12,652 bases of DNA. Source: Faecalicoccus sp. GTDB taxonomy: Bacteria; Bacillota_I; Bacilli_A; Erysipelotrichales; Erysipelotrichaceae. Made by a program: the position numbers and the translations under genes. Of the stretch, positions 209-11,643 are shown in pieces; positions within the stretch are counted from its first letter, which is position 1, and every line of letters begins with the position of its first letter. A model generated the notes under the pieces. That model was given only the letters and a program-made list of their open reading frames with translations, did not search any database and was not told the origin of the DNA. Location: positions 1 to 12,652 of the forward strand of contig JAGAWH010000050.1 of the NCBI GenBank assembly GCA_017941505.1, written 5' to 3'.

Positions 209-1120
209 TTATTTCATCACGACATCAAAGGTTCCGGCAAAACGTACCGTATCCATTTTTTCAATCTGTTCAATTTGTTTAGCAGTGATTCCATCCTCTT
301 TAACGACTTCAATCACATAATAATACTTCCCGAGTTCACTACCTTCAGGGCGGTCATGTAAGGCGACAAGTTCCAATCCGGATTGATGGATTTCTACGAT
401 GATATCATCGATTTGATCCGCATTACAGGTGGCCACAAATACCGCATGTGAGTAAGCTCCCTTTGCGGACGGTTCTTTAGAAAGAACATAGAACCGTGTT
501 TTATTGGTGTCGGTAATCTGGACATTTTCGGCAAGGACATCTAAATGATAAATATCAGCAGCGCCCGGTGCCGAAACGGCAGCTATTGTCAGATCCTGTG
601 TTTCCGATACATAACTTGCCGCAGCTGCCGTACTGTCCATCTCCTGTTCTTTGGCATTCGGTAAGTTTTCTTCACGCCATTTTTTTGACTGGGTCAAGCC
701 CTGAACATGGGAACAGACAAGCTGAATATCTTCTAACTTTGCTCCGGGTACACCTAATAAAGTCTGCGAAATAGGAATCACAACTTCTCCTACCACATAT
801 ACATCTTTCTGTGATATTAATGCATCCACATAATTGGTGACCGGACCGCCAATCGTATTTTCCTGCGGGATCACACCGTAATCAGCGCTTCCGTCCAAAA
901 CATCACTGATTGCTTCATCTACAGTTTTTTTCGGATTATAGGTATCCGAATCGGTGAAAAAGTATTTAGCTGCTTCTTCGGTATACGTTCCTTCCGGTCC
1001 CAAATAACTGATAATCGCATTTTCCTTAATTGGTGTTTTTTCCGGTTTCTCTACAGCAGCAGAGCTGCATCCTGATATAAGAAGCAATCCGGCAATTGTT
1101 AAGGTTGTTAATTTATTCAT
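209..1120 (-). CDS. Prephenate dehydratase with lipoprotein signal peptide
   Basis: Predicted to convert prephenate to phenylpyruvate, the committed step of phenylalanine synthesis, but exported. Residues 1-18 are a lipoprotein signal (MNK, hydrophobic core, lipobox ISGC with Cys18), followed by a charged linker to about residue 34. The dehydratase domain (about 36-215) keeps the family landmarks: YLGPEGTYTEEAA (39-51), IPQENTIGG (84-92), SHVQ (137-140), STAAAA (163-168) and the catalytic-type TRF (208-210). A degenerate ACT-like domain follows (about 220-303); it has HDRP at 255-258 where family members carry ESRP, and no clear GALF motif. The start has GGAG seven bases upstream (1128-1131). 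There is no internal Met before residue 161, so an unprocessed cytoplasmic form is not obvious. It is last in an operon, 2 nt after the membrane-protein gene. The family call is firm; surface location and retained activity are inferred. Confidence 0.85.
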   Translation of the reverse strand: MNKLTTLTIAGLLLISGCSSAAVEKPEKTPIKENAIISYLGPEGTYTEEAAKYFFTDSDTYNPKKTVDEAISDVLDGSADYGVIPQENTIGGPVTNYVDALISQKDVYVVGEVVIPISQTLLGVPGAKLEDIQLVCSHVQGLTQSKKWREENLPNAKEQEMDSTAAAASYVSETQDLTIAAVSAPGAADIYHLDVLAENVQITDTNKTRFYVLSKEPSAKGAYSHAVFVATCNADQIDDIIVEIHQSGLELVALHDRPEGSELGKYYYVIEVVKEDGITAKQIEQIEKMDTVRFAGTFDVVMK

Positions 1121-6151: not shown

Positions 6152-6174
6152 AAAAAGCCCATCCTCAGATAGGC
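6152..6174 (-). terminator. Intrinsic terminator overlapping the SNF2 stop codon
   Basis: GCCTATC and GATGGGC (6168-6174 and 6157-6163 on the - strand) pair over 7 bp with one G-U, closing a 4-nt loop, then five T residues (6152-6156). The loop 6164-6167 contains the TGA stop of the SNF2 gene (6165-6167), so the last codons form one arm of the hairpin. It separates the SNF2 transcript from the MerR promoter immediately downstream. Confidence 0.75.
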
Positions 6175-8861
6175 TTCTCATTCTGTTCCATTTCCTTTTT
6201 GATTCGTTCAATTTCTTCTTCAACGATTTGATAGAAGGTTGTCTGATCGACCTGATCAACCTGCTGACGATCCGCATCAGCCGAAACCGATTCATGGGCA
6301 AATTGATCGAAGATATACTGCTTATCCGCTAATAAATCAGTAATTCTTTCATCAATCGTATTTTCGCACAACAAGCGATGCACCAGTACATTTCGTGCCT
6401 GTCCCATACGGTACGCTCTGGATATGGCTTGATTTTCAATCGATGGTTTTAACTGCGGTTCACAGATAATGACCACCGATGCACTTTGAATGTTAAGTCC
6501 TGTACCACCTGCCTGAATCTGGGAAATCAAGACATGACCCGGCTCAGCTTTTTCAAATTCATCGATAATTTCCTGACGTGTTTTTGCCGGAACAGAACCA
6601 TTGATAATCGGAGAACAGATTTCATCCGGAAGATATTCTTTGATTTTTTCTAATGTCTTTCTAAAGAAGCTGAACACCAATACTTTGCGGCCATCCTCTT
6701 TGGCTTCTTCAATGAGTTCTGATAACCGTCTTGCCTTCGATGAATTCTTTAAATCTTCGACATTCCAGGATGCCTGACGGCAATCCATATAGTTTCTGTT
6801 AAAGATATCTTTTCGATAGATTTTCTTTTCTTCATCCAAAAGCGTGCACCACTGCTCTTTTTCAATCAGTTCCGGAAGTTCCATCAAGACATCTTCCCGC
6901 TTCCTTCGATAATAGACCGGTGCCACCAATTCACGGAACTGGTCGGCTTGCGACAGGTAGGATACTCTTTCAGCTTTTTCAGCAAGTTCCGGCTGAATAA
7001 TACGGATTAGGGAAATCATTTCTTCCACACGATTTTCCAGGGCAGTTCCCGTCATCAAAATGATCCGCTCAGCGTGTTTGGCCATAGCTTTGACATGAAT
7101 GGTCCGTTTGGCAGCCGGATTTTTAATATAATGTGCTTCATCCACCACCAGTAAGGAATACGTAAAGTCTTCCTCCAAGTTCCAGTGTCTTGTTGTCTCA
7201 TAGGTTGTGATCGCAACACCGCCGTGATCTTTCCAATACTGCAGCTCTTCCAATCGATCCGGTCCATATACAGTCACATAGGAAAGCTTGCTGTGCTTAC
7301 CGATTTCCTTACACCAGTTCGGCAGTACACCGGCCGGGCAAACCACCACAAAATGATCGGCACCGATATTTTTTAAAGAGACCATCGTGGCAATTGCCTG
7401 TATGGTCTTTCCAAGACCCATTTCATCCCCTAACAGGACATTTTTTTGATGGAGCATGTATTTAACGCCCCATTCCTGGTAATGACGCAGACTGTATAAT
7501 AATCCATTAGGAAAAATAACCTCTTCCCGAATCTGTTTGGCAAGCTCTTCCGGAAGTCCATATAAAGATTCACCATTATCGAGGATTCCCGGAACGATTT
7601 CTTCTATGATTCCATAGTAGCGGATTGAATCCTTTTCAAAATCTTTCCAGGCATTGAATGGGTTATCTAAAGGTTCTTGATACACTGCCTGCAAGTCATC
7701 AAAATAATCTCCATCCAGAGTATCTTTGGCATATAGATAGGCTTTGGATGTTTGATTCTTAATGGATGGTTCCAAAAGGATCCAATATGGATTGGAATCA
7801 TAGTTTTGGAGAGATTCCATCGCCTCCGGAAGTCTTCGATAATACGATTGAATCCTTTGACACGAATTCATCCACGCCATCCGCTGTTTATAAGCATAAA
7901 TATTTTGAACCAAATCATCATATTCTTCTGTTTGATTATCAACATTTAATCTTAAATGAACGGTTTTCTGGGTATCTGCTGCATATTGTCCGGCTGTTTT
8001 CTTCAATATTCTTGCGGTTTCCATAGAGATACCGGAGATATTGCTTAAGGCATAGATTCCTGCTTCATGGATATCAGCCACCGTTTCATATCCATGGTCA
8101 CGAAGCGGTTTAATCCGAATGACAGTATCTTTTGTCTTTAAAGATTCCACCGGTATGGTTTTTAAGATTCCTAAAACTTCCTTCATCACAATCTGCATGG
8201 TCTTATCCCGGATTGCCTCTTTATTCTCGGCAAGCTGTAAAGACAGATCATCATGTCCTTTTGTGAGCACCTGGTACTTTTGAAGCAGCCTTTCCACACC
8301 GGAATCTCCCATTTGGGCCTTTCCATCCCTCTTATCGGCATAATTCATCAATTCGGTATATAAATCCTGCTCTAATATCGATAAAGAAGGAGACGCATTC
8401 ATTATTTTTTCCAACTGCAGTACGGCATTATAATAATTCCCCATCGCCATGCCATGAAGTCTGTTATATGCGTTTTCTGTCTTCTTCTTATCTTCCTTCG
8501 ATGCGAAAAGCCGGCTGAAAAAGCCATTGCCGGAAGATAGTACTTCGATATCCCTTTTTATTCGCTTTTCATTTTGAAGTAATTCATTACAGTGATTATC
8601 GATCATTTGAAATTGAAGATATTTCTCAAAGGCTTGAAACAACGGTTCTAATTCCGGATAGTTGAAATACCCTGCTGATGAGCGAAGCTCCTCTTTGGCA
8701 TACAGCCGAAATGTAGACTGTATATTGTCATCTTCAAGTATTTTATTAAGATGATCTTCAGCCTGTGTGCAGGCACTTGATATATGATCCAGCTTTCTTA
8801 ATAAAGATTCATGAAGCTGTATGATTTTCTTTGCGTCAGAAAAAGAAAAAGACAGGGCCAT
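6165..8861 (-). CDS. SNF2-family DNA translocase/helicase with helix-hairpin-helix N-terminal region
   Basis: An ATP-driven double-stranded DNA translocase of superfamily 2. The C-terminal half carries a full SNF2 motor: Walker A GDEMGLGKT (478-486), DEAH (574-577), TGTALENR (604-611), motif V QAGGTGLN (783-790) and motif VI QAISRAYRMGQ (811-821). The first 450 residues are mostly helical and charged, with a helix-hairpin-helix-like DNA-binding segment at about 252-290 (LRDHGYETVADI, then ISGISMETARIL). No zinc-binding SWIM motif, nuclease or methylase domain is evident. The ribosome binding site GGAGG (8868-8872) is 6 bases from the ATG. The gene stands alone on its strand, with its own promoter and terminator, and diverges from the XRE/membrane-protein pair. 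The motor call is firm. Repair, remodelling of RNA polymerase and phage defence are all possible roles. Confidence 0.92.
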   Translation of the reverse strand: MALSFSFSDAKKIIQLHESLLRKLDHISSACTQAEDHLNKILEDDNIQSTFRLYAKEELRSSAGYFNYPELEPLFQAFEKYLQFQMIDNHCNELLQNEKRIKRDIEVLSSGNGFFSRLFASKEDKKKTENAYNRLHGMAMGNYYNAVLQLEKIMNASPSLSILEQDLYTELMNYADKRDGKAQMGDSGVERLLQKYQVLTKGHDDLSLQLAENKEAIRDKTMQIVMKEVLGILKTIPVESLKTKDTVIRIKPLRDHGYETVADIHEAGIYALSNISGISMETARILKKTAGQYAADTQKTVHLRLNVDNQTEEYDDLVQNIYAYKQRMAWMNSCQRIQSYYRRLPEAMESLQNYDSNPYWILLEPSIKNQTSKAYLYAKDTLDGDYFDDLQAVYQEPLDNPFNAWKDFEKDSIRYYGIIEEIVPGILDNGESLYGLPEELAKQIREEVIFPNGLLYSLRHYQEWGVKYMLHQKNVLLGDEMGLGKTIQAIATMVSLKNIGADHFVVVCPAGVLPNWCKEIGKHSKLSYVTVYGPDRLEELQYWKDHGGVAITTYETTRHWNLEEDFTYSLLVVDEAHYIKNPAAKRTIHVKAMAKHAERIILMTGTALENRVEEMISLIRIIQPELAEKAERVSYLSQADQFRELVAPVYYRRKREDVLMELPELIEKEQWCTLLDEEKKIYRKDIFNRNYMDCRQASWNVEDLKNSSKARRLSELIEEAKEDGRKVLVFSFFRKTLEKIKEYLPDEICSPIINGSVPAKTRQEIIDEFEKAEPGHVLISQIQAGGTGLNIQSASVVIICEPQLKPSIENQAISRAYRMGQARNVLVHRLLCENTIDERITDLLADKQYIFDQFAHESVSADADRQQVDQVDQTTFYQIVEEEIERIKKEMEQNEKPI

Positions 8862-8902: not shown

Positions 8903-8937
8903 TAAACAATTCTTAGTTTACAATAGTAGATGTAAAC
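8903..8937. promoter_or_regulatory. Array of GTTTA half-sites in the divergent promoter region (candidate operator)
   Basis: The segment holds a perfect inverted repeat GTTTACA (8916-8922) / TGTAAAC (8931-8937) with an 8-bp spacer. An overlapping repeat TAAAC (8903-8907) / GTTTA (8916-8920), also with an 8-bp spacer, shares the middle half-site. The array sits between the -10 of the leftward SNF2 gene and the -35 of the rightward XRE gene. It is a natural site for the XRE regulator to control one or both transcripts. Binding is inferred from symmetry and position only. Confidence 0.5.
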
Positions 8938-8968
8938 CACTATGTTACATAATGCACATGTTAGTTTC

Positions 8969-8998
8969 TTGTCTATATAGTCATATAAAAGATACAAT
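8969..8998 (+). promoter_or_regulatory. Promoter of the XRE/membrane-protein operon
   Basis: TTGTCT (8969-8974) and TACAAT (8993-8998) are separated by 18 bp and match sigma-A-type -35 and -10 elements at 4/6 and 5/6 positions. The start would be near 9005, 23 nt before the ATG at 9028. AGGA (9014-9017) is a modest ribosome binding site 10 nt from that ATG. Confidence 0.65.
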
Positions 8999-9027
8999 GA
9001 AAGCACAAAAGAAAGGAAAACTACTTT

Positions 9028-9468
9028 ATGAATAACCTAAGCAGTAAAATCGCATTGAAGCGGAAGAGTCTTGGCATGACACAGATTGAATTTGCCAATC
9101 AATTGTCCGTCACAAGACAGACCGTTTCCCGCTGGGAAGCAGGTACCGTTTTACCGGATATCGATAAAATTCCGGATATTGCCTCCATATTAAATGTCTC
9201 CTGCGATTATTTATTAAAAGACGAAATTGATCAAGATACTCCGCTTTCTTCTGTCAGCCGTCTGCTATTTGATACGAAAGGAAAGACCGTCCGTTTTGTG
9301 TTCTTCGACGGTGAAGCGGATATGGATCTATTCAACAAAGACTGCCGCATTCTGGAATTTGAAGGAAATTGGATCAAAGTAGAAGTTCAAACAAACAAAG
9401 GAAGACTCGAAAAACTAATATCACTTTCCTCTATACTTTCCTTTGAAATTATCAAGGAGGAACAATAG
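9028..9468 (+). CDS. XRE-family (Cro/CI-type) transcriptional regulator with extra C-terminal domain
   Basis: Residues 5-65 are a canonical HTH_3 domain: IALKRKSLGMTQIEFANQL, then the recognition-helix region SVTRQTVSRWEAG, then LPDIDKIPDIASILNVSCDYLL. After a linker, residues about 85-143 form a compact, beta-rich-looking domain that I do not recognise. It aligns without gaps over its last 27 residues with the downstream membrane protein: WIKVEV with WLLVQI, NKGRLEKLISL with PKGSKEKLIRL. The stop codon directly abuts the next ATG (TAGATG), so the two are co-translated. It probably represses its own operon through the half-site array upstream and may also control the divergent SNF2 gene. The regulator call is firm; the targets are inferred. 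Confidence 0.92.
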   Translation: MNNLSSKIALKRKSLGMTQIEFANQLSVTRQTVSRWEAGTVLPDIDKIPDIASILNVSCDYLLKDEIDQDTPLSSVSRLLFDTKGKTVRFVFFDGEADMDLFNKDCRILEFEGNWIKVEVQTNKGRLEKLISLSSILSFEIIKEEQ

Positions 9469-9834
9469 ATGGAATATATCGGATTAGTGTTCGGAATCTT
9501 TGGATTACTTGCGTACCTGCAGGTCTCGCAATTGAAAACAAAGGTGAATGAATTAGAAAGCCAGCTGGCAAAAATACAGGGTACTTCTTACCACGATGAT
9601 CGCTTGGCATTAGAATCTGCTGCCAGGAAATATATCAAAGAAACAGTTCAGATCAAGCTGAAGGAAGATTATATGGATGTGGATATTGTGAACTACGGCA
9701 ATACTAAGCACGGATCCAATATCATACTGGACGTAGATGAAGACTGGTTATTGGTTCAGATTAATGCTCCAAAAGGAAGTAAAGAAAAGCTCATTCGGCT
9801 GGAAGCGGTTCAAAATATTACCGTCAAAAATTAA
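9469..9834 (+). CDS. Single-span membrane protein sharing its C-terminal domain with the upstream regulator
   Basis: Unrecognised protein of 121 residues. A transmembrane helix near residues 3-20 (IGLVFGIFGLLAYLQV) is followed by lysines, so by the positive-inside rule the bulk should face the cytoplasm. Residues about 20-38 look like a short coiled coil (LKTKVNELESQLAKI). The domain at about 57-120 matches the C-terminal domain of the adjacent XRE regulator, with conserved Trp93, Val96, Lys102-Gly103, Glu106-Lys-Leu-Ile109 and Leu111; it also has an extra loop of about six residues (NYGNTKHG region). The ribosome binding site GGAGG (9456-9460) is 8 nt from the ATG, which directly follows the regulator's stop codon. 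A membrane partner that tethers or titrates the regulator is the simplest model, but it is untested. Confidence 0.82.
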   Translation: MEYIGLVFGIFGLLAYLQVSQLKTKVNELESQLAKIQGTSYHDDRLALESAARKYIKETVQIKLKEDYMDVDIVNYGNTKHGSNIILDVDEDWLLVQINAPKGSKEKLIRLEAVQNITVKN

Positions 9835-9841
9835 ATATAAC

Positions 9842-9882
9842 ATGGGGCTGTTACGAAATATTTCATTTCGTAGCAGCCCCAT
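9842..9882. terminator. Long hairpin between converging genes, probable bidirectional terminator
   Basis: Arms 9842-9859 and 9865-9882 pair over 18 bp around a 5-nt loop. The one imperfect position is a G-U pair in the + strand RNA and an A-C mismatch in the - strand RNA. The core is atggggctg / cagccccat. It lies 7 nt after the membrane-protein stop and 8 nt before the symporter stop. The U-tracts are poor on both strands (tctcgtttt on +, gttatattt on -), so the long GC-rich stem must do most of the work. Confidence 0.7.
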
Positions 9883-9890
9883 ATCTCGTT

Positions 9891-11414
9891 TTACTGCATA
9901 TTGATATTGTTGGATGCGATATCCTTTTTGAAGTGTTCGTTTACATCCGGATATGCCGACAACATCGGTTCTACATCGATTCCCTTTTTGCGGTCAAAAT
10001 AATTCTTTGTGATCTTACCTACCAGTGACTGTAAGGCAATCAAACAGATCAAGTTTGGTACAGCCATCAAACCGTTAAACGTATCATCAATTGCCCATAC
10101 CAAATCACTTTTGATGGTTGCCGATGCGGCAATCAAAAGTACATATACAACTTTAAATACAGCTACTACTCTTCTGCGGTTTTCCTTAGTCATCCAGTCA
10201 CAGCAGAAATCGACTGCCTTTTCACCATAATAAGACCATGCCAGAATGGTCGTAAAGGCAAATAAAGGAAGAATGATACTGAAGGTCATGGTTCCAAATG
10301 TTCCGAAATTCTGGGTAAACATATTCATGGACATTAAGCTGTCTTCCATCTCACCGGATAATAATGCCACATCATTTGTCGTTAAGAACATAAGTGCTGT
10401 TAATGTACAGATAATAAAGGTATCAAAGAAAACTTCAAATACACCCCAAAGTCCCTGTTTAACCGGTTCTCTTGTCTCGGATGCAGAGTGCGCAATTACA
10501 GAAGATCCAAGACCTGCTTCATTGGAGAACACACCTCTTGCCATACCTTTTTTAATAACCTGAGAGAAGGAATAGCCTAAGATTCCTCCGCCGGCTGCCT
10601 GGAAGCTGAACGCCTTAGAGAAGATTAGTCCAAACGCAGAAGGTAATCGATCAATGTGCATCACAATTGCGATAATAGATAACACAATAAATAATAAAGA
10701 CATAAACGGTACAAGCAAGGATGCCGTGCGTCCAATTCTTTTAATACCGCCGATGACGATAATGGCAGTAATCAGAGCTACAATACAGCCAATCGCAAGA
10801 CGCAATCCTTCGTTAGAAAGTGTTACTCCCAAACCGGTTAATGCCTCAGCTAGTGTTCCGGAGATCTTATTTGTTTGTACACCGCTCATACCGATAGCCG
10901 CAAACACACAGAATATCGCGGCTAAGTAAGCCAGCCATTTCTGCTTCATACCATAGGCGATATAGTAGAAGGAACCACCGGATAAGTTTCCATCCTCATC
11001 TTTTTTACGGAAATATAAACCCAATACGTTTTCGGAATAGTTTGTCACCATTCCAAAGAAGGCAGAAATCCACATCCAGAATACAGCACCCGGTCCACCG
11101 GTTAAGATGGCAGATACAACACCGATAATATTACCGGTACCTACGGTTCCGGAAATTGCGGTTGCGAATGCTTCAAACTGCGAAATCGATTGAACAGTGT
11201 CCTGCTTGTCGGATTTCTTTTTTCCTAAACCTTTAATCGTTGGAATAATCGTTGTGTTGAGTGATTCCTTAAAGTGTGTAATCTGTAGAAAATTTGTTCG
11301 AATGGATAAGATCAAACCGGTGCCAAGAATCAAAATAATGACCGGCCATCCCCATACAATGCCATTCAATACGTCGTTGATCTTTTCGATCGTGTTAATA
11401 ATGTTTGTCCACAT
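9891..11414 (-). CDS. AGCS-family sodium:alanine/glycine symporter
   Basis: An integral membrane transporter that takes up alanine or glycine with sodium. Hydrophobic segments run throughout, about ten or eleven in number. Family signatures include SQFEAFATAISGTVGTGNI (82-100), GGPGAVFWMW (110-119) and the later GVFSNEAGLGSS stretch, numbered from the upstream ATG at 11426. I place the start at the ATG at 11414: GGAGG (11419-11423) lies four bases before it, whereas the ATG at 11426 follows a terminator U-run with no ribosome binding site. A charged tail after the last membrane segment (KNYFDRKKGIDVEP onward) is probably cytoplasmic. The gene lies downstream of a tandem glycine riboswitch and terminator, so glycine is a likely substrate and signal. 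The family is certain; preference for glycine over alanine is inferred from the riboswitch. Confidence 0.95.
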   Translation of the reverse strand: MWTNIINTIEKINDVLNGIVWGWPVIILILGTGLILSIRTNFLQITHFKESLNTTIIPTIKGLGKKKSDKQDTVQSISQFEAFATAISGTVGTGNIIGVVSAILTGGPGAVFWMWISAFFGMVTNYSENVLGLYFRKKDEDGNLSGGSFYYIAYGMKQKWLAYLAAIFCVFAAIGMSGVQTNKISGTLAEALTGLGVTLSNEGLRLAIGCIVALITAIIVIGGIKRIGRTASLLVPFMSLLFIVLSIIAIVMHIDRLPSAFGLIFSKAFSFQAAGGGILGYSFSQVIKKGMARGVFSNEAGLGSSVIAHSASETREPVKQGLWGVFEVFFDTFIICTLTALMFLTTNDVALLSGEMEDSLMSMNMFTQNFGTFGTMTFSIILPLFAFTTILAWSYYGEKAVDFCCDWMTKENRRRVVAVFKVVYVLLIAASATIKSDLVWAIDDTFNGLMAVPNLICLIALQSLVGKITKNYFDRKKGIDVEPMLSAYPDVNEHFKKDIASNNINMQ

Positions 11415-11426
11415 ATTCCCTCCCAT

Positions 11427-11454: not shown

Positions 11455-11569
11455 CGAAGAATCATACAAAAGACATCAAAAAACTAAATTCTGTCTCCGT
11501 CCTTTTGCCTGAGAGATTACGGTATTACCCGCTTGCACCTTCGGCATCCATTCAAGGAATTCTCCGGAG
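11452..11569 (-). promoter_or_regulatory. Predicted antiterminator pairing of the glycine riboswitch
   Basis: CTCCGGAGAA (- strand, 11560-11569) can pair with TTCTTCGGAG (11452-11461) over ten bases with one G-U. The first element contains the 5' P1 strand of aptamer 2; the second overlaps the first three bases of the terminator stem. The two folds exclude each other, so ligand-stabilised P1 should release the terminator. Confidence 0.6.
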
Positions 11570-11643
11570 TATTGTCCGCATACAGTCTTCTGTTTCCTGA
11601 GTGTTTTACACCTTCGGCGATGTTTCCATCCTTTTCCTGCATG
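11495..11643 (-). promoter_or_regulatory. Tandem glycine riboswitch (gcvT-type, two aptamers)
   Basis: Two consecutive aptamers lie on the - strand. Aptamer 1 (11643-11579) has P1 arms CATGCAG and CTGTATG, the core CGCCGAAGGTGTAAAACAC and CTCAGGAAACAG. Aptamer 2 (11569-11495) has P1 arms CTCCG and CGGAG, the core TGCCGAAGGTGCAAG, and TCTCTCAGGCAAAAGGAC. The repeated CCGAAGG and CTCAGG elements are the diagnostic glycine-binding core. A 9-nt linker joins the aptamers. The gene downstream is an AGCS symporter, a well-known partner of this RNA class. Known AGCS-linked examples in other Gram-positives act as OFF switches, and the pairing seen here predicts the same. Confidence 0.95.

Follow-up and report, generated by a model that had tools for sequence, protein, structure and literature searches.

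Why should a soluble transcription regulator and the membrane protein encoded beside it end in the same domain? The question is raised by a window of 12,652 nucleotides, the whole stretch of a Faecalicoccus sp. contig that was analysed, in which a gene for an XRE-family regulator (XRE) directly precedes a gene for a small membrane protein (MP). The initial annotation ascribed a common C-terminal domain to both products and proposed that the membrane protein binds the regulator by pairing of like domains and in this way sequesters it or signals to it.

The two genes and the domain they share

The regulator gene (9028..9468, + strand) encodes 146 amino acids that comprise an HTH_3 domain, a linker and a barrel-like domain at about residues 84-145 (9277..9462, + strand), the latter delimited by profile comparison. 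Pfam recognises HTH domains only in this protein, with HTH_3 (PF01381) at residues 9-62 scoring 52.1 bits against a cut-off of 23. The adjoining gene (9469..9834, + strand) encodes the 121-residue MP, for which the predicted order is two residues outside the cell, a membrane span of about residues 3-17, a probable heptad-like coil at about residues 18-38, a linker and the second copy of the domain at residues 56-121 (9634..9831, + strand), likewise placed by profile comparison. No Pfam family above its cut-off and no NCBIfam entry at E<=1 matches MP. Re-reading of the DNA confirmed the coordinates and frames of both genes and their exact abutment, the TAG stop codon of XRE (9466-9468) being followed at 9469 by the ATG of MP. 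Likely ribosome-binding sites were read from the sequence: that of XRE, AGAAAGGA, lies at 9010..9017 (+ strand), and that of MP, AAGGAGG (9454..9460, + strand), falls within the 3' end of the XRE gene. The position of the latter site, together with the spacing of the two genes among related loci (-4, -1 or 0 nt in 47 of 56), suggests that their translation is coupled. An intrinsic terminator predicted directly 3' of MP (9842..9882, + strand) would end the two-gene unit. The flanking genes, for a SNF2-type helicase (6165-8861) and a sodium:alanine symporter (9891-11426), both lie on the opposite (-) strand. The symporter gene is preceded by a glycine riboswitch aptamer (RF00504, 56.1 bits, 11487-11577, - strand), which is an ordinary pairing. 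Farther away, the gene at 209-1120 (- strand) encodes a prephenate dehydratase (PDT) domain (PF00800, E 3.5e-53, residues 37-217) preceded by the lipoprotein-like signal LLLISGCSS; its product is possibly an exported PDT-like protein.

The proposed gapless match of 27 residues between the two C-termini was recovered at XRE 115-141 and MP 93-119, with a constant offset of 22 and with W115/W93, K124-G125/K102-G103 and E128-KLI/E106-KLI among the matched residues. A BLASTP comparison of the two window proteins yielded 25.8 bits and an E-value of 8e-5, which applies to this single comparison. The likeness is far stronger between families: hhalign of the MP family against the XRE family gave Prob 96.2 and E 2.2e-9 over 70 columns. 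The underlying alignments contained 56 rows of 121 for MP (A1) and 39 rows of 54 for XRE (A2), drawn from a pool in which the two window proteins were joined by 120 listed homologues of MP and 53 of XRE. The upstream TV..DxD part, which had been aligned on the assumption of a six-residue loop, also held, as the profile alignment contains one six-residue gap after the D.D motif. The gap coincides with the loop YGNTKHGSN of the main-family MP domain, which the XRE copy does not possess.

Profiles built from one protein recognise the other. Among the eight genomes that contain a strong MP, an MP-only profile matched the XRE C-terminal domain in seven, with per-genome E-values of 2.7e-7 to 8.2e-4. 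The exception was G095, where it matched MP alone; in another genome (G101) it matched XRE and missed the divergent MP. At E<=0.01, the MP-only main-family profile found 45 of 45 main-family XREs and 6 of 13 divergent ones, and the main-family profile of the XRE C-terminus alone found 44 of 44 main-family MPs and 12 of 18 divergent or solo MPs. The divergent-MP and divergent-XRE profiles extended recognition to 12 of the 13 divergent XREs and 16 of the 18 divergent or solo MPs, respectively, again with all 45 XREs and all 44 MPs of the main family. No reversed decoy reached E<=0.01, the best values being 0.021 and 0.014 for the two main-family profiles and 0.014 over all four. Other reading frames that matched were MP fragments at contig ends or masked bases (L079, L088, L090) or RimP (L087, L089). 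The XRE of L085 was matched by no profile built without L085, and its domain was recognised by eye. No further result was drawn from a mixed alignment that places XRE domains over MP domains. By these sequence comparisons the C-terminal domains of XRE and MP are homologous, which speaks against different folds for the two.

As to what that fold may be, weak profile matches suggest a resemblance to the C-terminal SH3/Sm-like barrel of RimP. Of 90 MPs, 16 matched DUF150_C at E<=0.5, the best match obtained (L025) having an E-value of 0.0046 and 17.6 bits against a cut-off of 26.3. DUF6897 reached 20 bits at best against a cut-off of 23.9, and the Hfq-like family Phage_Hfq showed a weak resemblance below its threshold. 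From the other direction, the divergent-MP profile matched RimP proteins (E 4.8e-5 and 2.9e-4), and both this profile and the mixed domain profile A7 picked up RimP in the genomes G638 and G084. The likeness to the RimP C-terminal domain (PF17384), DUF6897 and Phage_Hfq is thus repeated and weak, the matches of XRE and MP staying below the curated cut-offs. Unlike RimP, XRE and MP have no RimP N-terminal domain, and a role at the ribosome or with RNA is not indicated for them. Searches of PDB sequences gave no match with A7, and with A1 only weak, coiled-coil-like matches at E>=0.19.

The lysines that follow the single span had been taken to place the MP domain in the cytoplasm, and the charge pattern bears this out across the family. 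At least three K/R occur in the 20 residues after the span in 61 of 61 MPs, none before it in 60 of 61, and precisely two residues precede it in 51 of 61. The set leaves out L079, L087, L088, L089 and L096 (masked, RimP, truncated or with an odd start), and L132 was counted from an inner start. By the positive-inside rule, MP is oriented N-out/C-in, with about two residues outside and the domain in the cytoplasm; a location of the domain outside the cell was considered by the charge rule only, and by that rule the domain falls inside. The span is the best-conserved stretch of the protein (mean 0.82 compared with 0.71 for the barrel in 43 main-family MPs), with F11 and G12 at 1.0 and A15 at 0.98. 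It therefore probably packs against something and is more than a mere anchor.

Distribution of the pair and of solitary membrane proteins

That the two genes remain neighbours in divergent genomes, as a functional link between them would require according to the initial annotation, was confirmed by survey. The mixed profile A7 (22 rows), run over one order of 315 genomes, matched 57, many of the surveyed genomes being fragmented assemblies. Of these, 53 contain the XRE-MP pair, one has a solo MP (G068), one is cut at a contig edge (G610) and two are RimP (G638, G084). Within the 53, the XRE of G618 was identified by eye, the MP of G565 runs into the contig end and the N-terminus of the G145 MP is masked. 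Where a script located both genes, in 56 loci, XRE always comes first and on the same strand as MP. Several matches were discarded. Those in G638 and G084 are RimP and not the pair, as judged by Pfam for G638 and by resemblance for G084; the match in G372, with frames of 668 and 562 aa hit at different places, was treated as chance; and a 515-aa partner in G145 proved to be an artefact of masked bases.

In a sample of the class, 13 of 395 genomes matched: seven with pairs (including G832), five (G172, G183, G392, G337, G781) in which no XRE was seen next to the MP, and G372. Three of 160 genomes in the order of G482 matched, two of them as pairs, and three of 198 in the phylum of G004, all as pairs. 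Two of the loci in the latter phylum, L153 and L154, have a GC content of 63-64%; the C-terminal domain of the L154 XRE was missed by the mixed profile (E 0.26) and found by the divergent-XRE profile (E 2e-5). The arrangement therefore probably crosses a wide gap, into a second phylum, a conclusion that draws on the assignment of the G004 assembly to Coriobacteriales and on the GC content and that is open to mis-binning of the G004 contig. Near relatives were found in assemblies of Solobacterium, Erysipelotrichaceae, Lachnospiraceae, Oscillospiraceae and Coriobacteriales, some from sheep gut, and one in Erysipelothrix sp. HDW6C. The pair recurs in many gut and rumen bacteria.

No neighbouring protein gene accompanies the pair in more than 4 of 67 loci. 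Three neighbour clusters in all occur in at least 4 of 67 loci; in the largest, present in 27 loci, 35 of 35 frames are antisense to the pair, and in one 4-locus cluster 4 of 5 are. The sole true neighbour protein is present in 4 of 67 loci (L121, L122, L123, L137), and a conserved neighbour or effector gene was consequently rejected. A phage or plasmid module was likewise not supported. Neither 50,697 phage records nor 72,556 plasmid records contained a match to the window MP at E<=0.01, in searches that would reveal fairly close relatives only, and 20 stretches of viral contigs that fit the MP alignment patterns yielded no confirmed case.

G172 and G183, each with a solo MP, contain no second copy of the domain at E<=0.05, which suggests that MP has a function of its own. 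Solo MP-like proteins, 107-112 aa long and without a visible XRE neighbour, occur at L013, L015, L027, L028 and L086; their C-termini are alike, with a KIIRIESI-like sequence in several. At L093 (2007-2375), a main-family MP without XRE and without an exact operator, the second copy in G595, lies near an Hsp20-like gene and is either a true solo MP or the result of an assembly rearrangement.

Such proteins bear on an explanation in which XRE and MP never touch. Sm/SH3-like barrels often bind small molecules or RNA, and both domains might bind the same small molecule or RNA, MP serving as effector or carrier and XRE as ligand-responsive regulator of the MP gene. The weak likeness to the RimP SH3 domain, to Hfq-like proteins and to DUF6897 fits this scheme, as do the MPs without an XRE neighbour and the MP loop YGNTKHGSN, which is conserved like a site. 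Arguing against it is the absence of the loop from XRE and from divergent MPs, so that a common site is not evident; nor does the near-invariant coupling of the two genes call for a shared ligand. We regard a common ligand as improbable.

The putative operator and the proposed circuit

The regulator's presumptive target lies just upstream of its own promoter. O1, a putative operator with the palindrome ATGTAAACCACTATGTTACAT (8930..8950, + strand), precedes XRE in all 45 main-family loci examined, with the consensus ATGTAA-N9-TTACAT at 91-104 bp 5' of the XRE start. Of 57 upstream regions, 42 have an exact copy, and no such copy arose in 200 base-shuffled sets; the three remaining main-family loci have it at the same place with one mismatch. 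Among the divergent loci, L135 and L136 retain it at -91/-90 with two and three mismatches, and the other ten have no O1 in place; L085 was kept outside the operator set. Column conservation points to an additional element, O2 (TGCACATGTTAGTTTCTTG, 8953..8971, + strand), lying 3' of O1 and extending into the -35 box. The predicted sigma-A promoter, TTGTCT and TACAAT separated by 18 nt (8969..8998, + strand), was obtained by a consensus scan that found 7 sites in the stretch where 3.5 were expected; the family promoter profile contains the same elements with a spacer of 17 nt. In 40 distinct regions of the 42, the palindrome, a TG-ACA-GA--ATTTCTTG block, the -35 and the -10 follow at fixed distance in unconserved surroundings. 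O2 is a possible second binding site; its right half is conserved and its dyad symmetry is poor. Two other palindromes were noted. An inverted repeat at 8917-8938, GTTTACA-N8-TGTAAAC, overlaps the left half of O1 and is not conserved in the family profile. The divergent pairs L079 and L081 have similar palindromes with 10-bp arms and the core TTTATC-N4-GATAAA, their left edges at -115 and -117 of XRE, which are either operators of that lineage or terminators of upstream genes.

The genomic distribution of these sites is narrow. The extended core ATGTAAMM-N5-TGTTACAT occurs in 40 of 42 pair genomes and, as counted from the match list, always at the promoter of the pair. In G054 and G529 the pair's site falls one base short of it, that of G529 being a one-mismatch version, and one extra copy in G548 is a probable contig-end duplicate. 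O2 is exact in 10 of 20 genomes and in those is found at the pair's promoter only. Among genomes with no pair seen, 1 of 39 has a match to extended O1. Since copies of the extended core and of O2 are confined to the pair's promoter, XRE most likely serves one strong site, predicted to be that of its own operon.

The bare palindrome is somewhat less restricted. Away from the pair it turns up in 9 of the 42 genomes (G001, G003, G004, G074, G526, G529, G549, G595, G635) compared with 2 for the reversed control, a mild excess that may include weaker XRE targets. These sites count in favour of a sensory switch of the kind known from LytTR Regulatory Systems, in which MP would be a membrane inhibitor that a membrane signal inactivates, whereupon XRE would activate its own operon and distant effectors through weaker sites. 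The order of regulator and membrane protein and the sites just 5' of the -35 box agree with such systems as far as the accessible part of their description goes (PMC6193735), and the conservation of the MP span is unusual for a mere anchor. At up to two mismatches, however, the extended form in 10 genomes gave 12 off-pair strand-hits (9 places) compared with 15 in the reversed control, hence no excess of other sites; one off-pair site with a single mismatch is found in G587. Nor does a recurrent neighbour gene offer itself as effector, and LytTR Regulatory Systems employ LytTR regulators and direct repeats, their control reaching genes outside the operon itself. A general switch with a regulon is disfavoured because the extended-core copies are found at the own promoter only and because MPs occur without an XRE neighbour; we consider this explanation rather unlikely.

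The position of the sites is informative about the sign of regulation. O1, an inverted repeat, is situated 18 bp upstream of the -35 hexamer, and relative to the predicted start the centres of O1 and O2 fall near -65 and -43, which fits activator positions. The arrangement leans toward positive autoregulation, and placement upstream of the -35 is compatible with repression as well. XRE regulators are commonly repressors, and XRE might repress the operon while MP acts in the manner of the anti-repressor SinI, as a competitor that forms inactive heterodimers and whose location restricts the effect to a pool at the membrane. Such a mechanism would accord with the habit of XRE-family repressors and with the binding of SinI through the dimerisation helices of SinR, as given in the available text (PMC6192195). 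With O1 lying 5' of the -35 and not over the promoter core, and with no match of XRE or MP to the SinI family of Pfam at E<=1, it appears very unlikely.

Our preferred reading, a tentative one that comes close to being probable, is that the pair forms a self-contained two-gene autoregulatory unit, a homeostat or switch without a large regulon that operates by pairing with MP; pairing and regulation are both predicted. XRE would bind O1, and perhaps O2, just 5' of its own -35 box and would control only or mainly its own operon. MP would self-associate through its coil and conserved span and, in its N-out/C-in orientation, present its barrel to the cytoplasm, where it would pair with the barrel of XRE. 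XRE would be drawn to the membrane, or its dimer broken, with a change in operator occupancy, such that transcription of XRE and MP would be set by how much MP the membrane contains or by its state there. MP would then be both the thing measured and the thing made, and XRE a dedicated sensor built on a copy of the MP domain. The single strong site and the solo MPs elsewhere favour such a feedback device for MP itself.

Direct contact between the barrels is plausible, and evolutionary distances give it weak support. The distances between XRE C-terminal domains correlate with those between MP domains (partial r 0.27, p 0.004, with HTH and span distances removed) and more strongly with those of the MP span plus coil (partial r 0.41, p 0.0005), in 43 of the 45 main-family loci. 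HTH distances do not track MP domain distances after correction. The correlation is weak and is limited by the shared operon history and the slow HTH (0.24), and the stronger tracking of span and coil means that barrel pairing is not singled out. A tree of 59 domains required 6 changes between XRE and MP labels compared with 24.5 after shuffling, with low support and several long branches. The domains group by type and not by genome, by which a recent tandem duplication in each genome was rejected; XRE and MP domains, to judge from the tree, separated long ago. Owing to this old separation and to the MP loop without an XRE counterpart, the surfaces of the two domains may differ.

Significance and comparison with known systems

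It is possible, though we lean against it, that the pair represents a new membrane-linked regulatory class, probably in two phyla, in which a regulator reads a membrane protein through a copy of that protein's barrel, by pairing of like with like, and acts on one private promoter. With so little of MP exposed outside and so conserved a span, MP would on this reading sense the membrane itself or a partner within it. If this is right, it is about the smallest membrane-to-DNA circuit that can be built, with some 270 residues, one promoter, one operator and specificity through the shared domain. It would extend the idea of a regulator and its membrane inhibitor from LytTR to XRE regulators and would provide a clean test case for the co-evolution of a soluble regulator and the protein that it senses. 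By means of the operator and the domain profile, the system can be located and tested in many uncultured gut bacteria.

The initial annotation did not recognise the arrangement as described. This stands for the combination: no XRE/membrane pair with a shared domain was recognised in the open literature, as covered by titles and abstract openings and with subscription papers mostly outside, and the combination, on a different domain, is unmatched there. It does not stand for the components, as operons of a regulator and a membrane inhibitor, and the SinR/SinI pair, are already known. On the features examined, the pair falls outside LytTR Regulatory Systems, SinR/SinI and the XRE-DUF397 pairs.

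DUF397 partners are small soluble proteins. In Streptomyces, an XRE gene is likewise followed by a small partner gene, and the accessible portions of two reports describe the pair as regulatory (PMC6262351, PMC10364602). DUF397 is not among the Pfam families listed for MPs, one table of which covers 25 of 67 families. A membrane-associated transcription factor described elsewhere is, in the part of the source available, a single protein and not a pair (PMC13384398).

SinI pairs through helices, and the partners in SinR/SinI are soluble. According to the available text, SinI of Bacillus subtilis binds SinR through two C-terminal helices that also serve in SinR dimerisation (PMC6192195), and in Clostridioides difficile SinR', a SinR homologue, binds and inhibits SinR (PMC11139204). 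As in these systems, so far as the sources show, an HTH regulator is joined by a partner from the same locus, which there is an antagonist; here the shared domain is predicted to be beta-barrel-like and one copy is anchored in the membrane.

LytTR Regulatory Systems are widespread and mostly uncharacterised; in HdrRM and BrsRM of Streptococcus mutans, deletion of the membrane protein triggers positive feedback (both from the accessible part of PMC6193735). Like them, the pair is a two-gene operon with a soluble regulator followed by a membrane protein, here evident from gene order, spacing and the charge rule, with conserved sites just 5' of the operon's -35 box and, by prediction here, autoregulation. 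They differ in the regulator, LytTR there and XRE (HTH_3) here, no LytTR domain being found in XRE among Pfam families at E<=1, and in the sites, direct repeats there and the inverted repeat O1 here in place of any direct repeats of the LytTR type 5' of the -35. MP is a single-span protein with about two residues outside, and it has a domain in common with its regulator, of which the accessible part of the LytTR account makes no mention. LytTR Regulatory Systems are by analogy the nearest in layout and promoter logic, and for pairing by way of C-terminal helices of the regulator itself SinR/SinI comes closest, binding in the XRE-MP pair being predicted.
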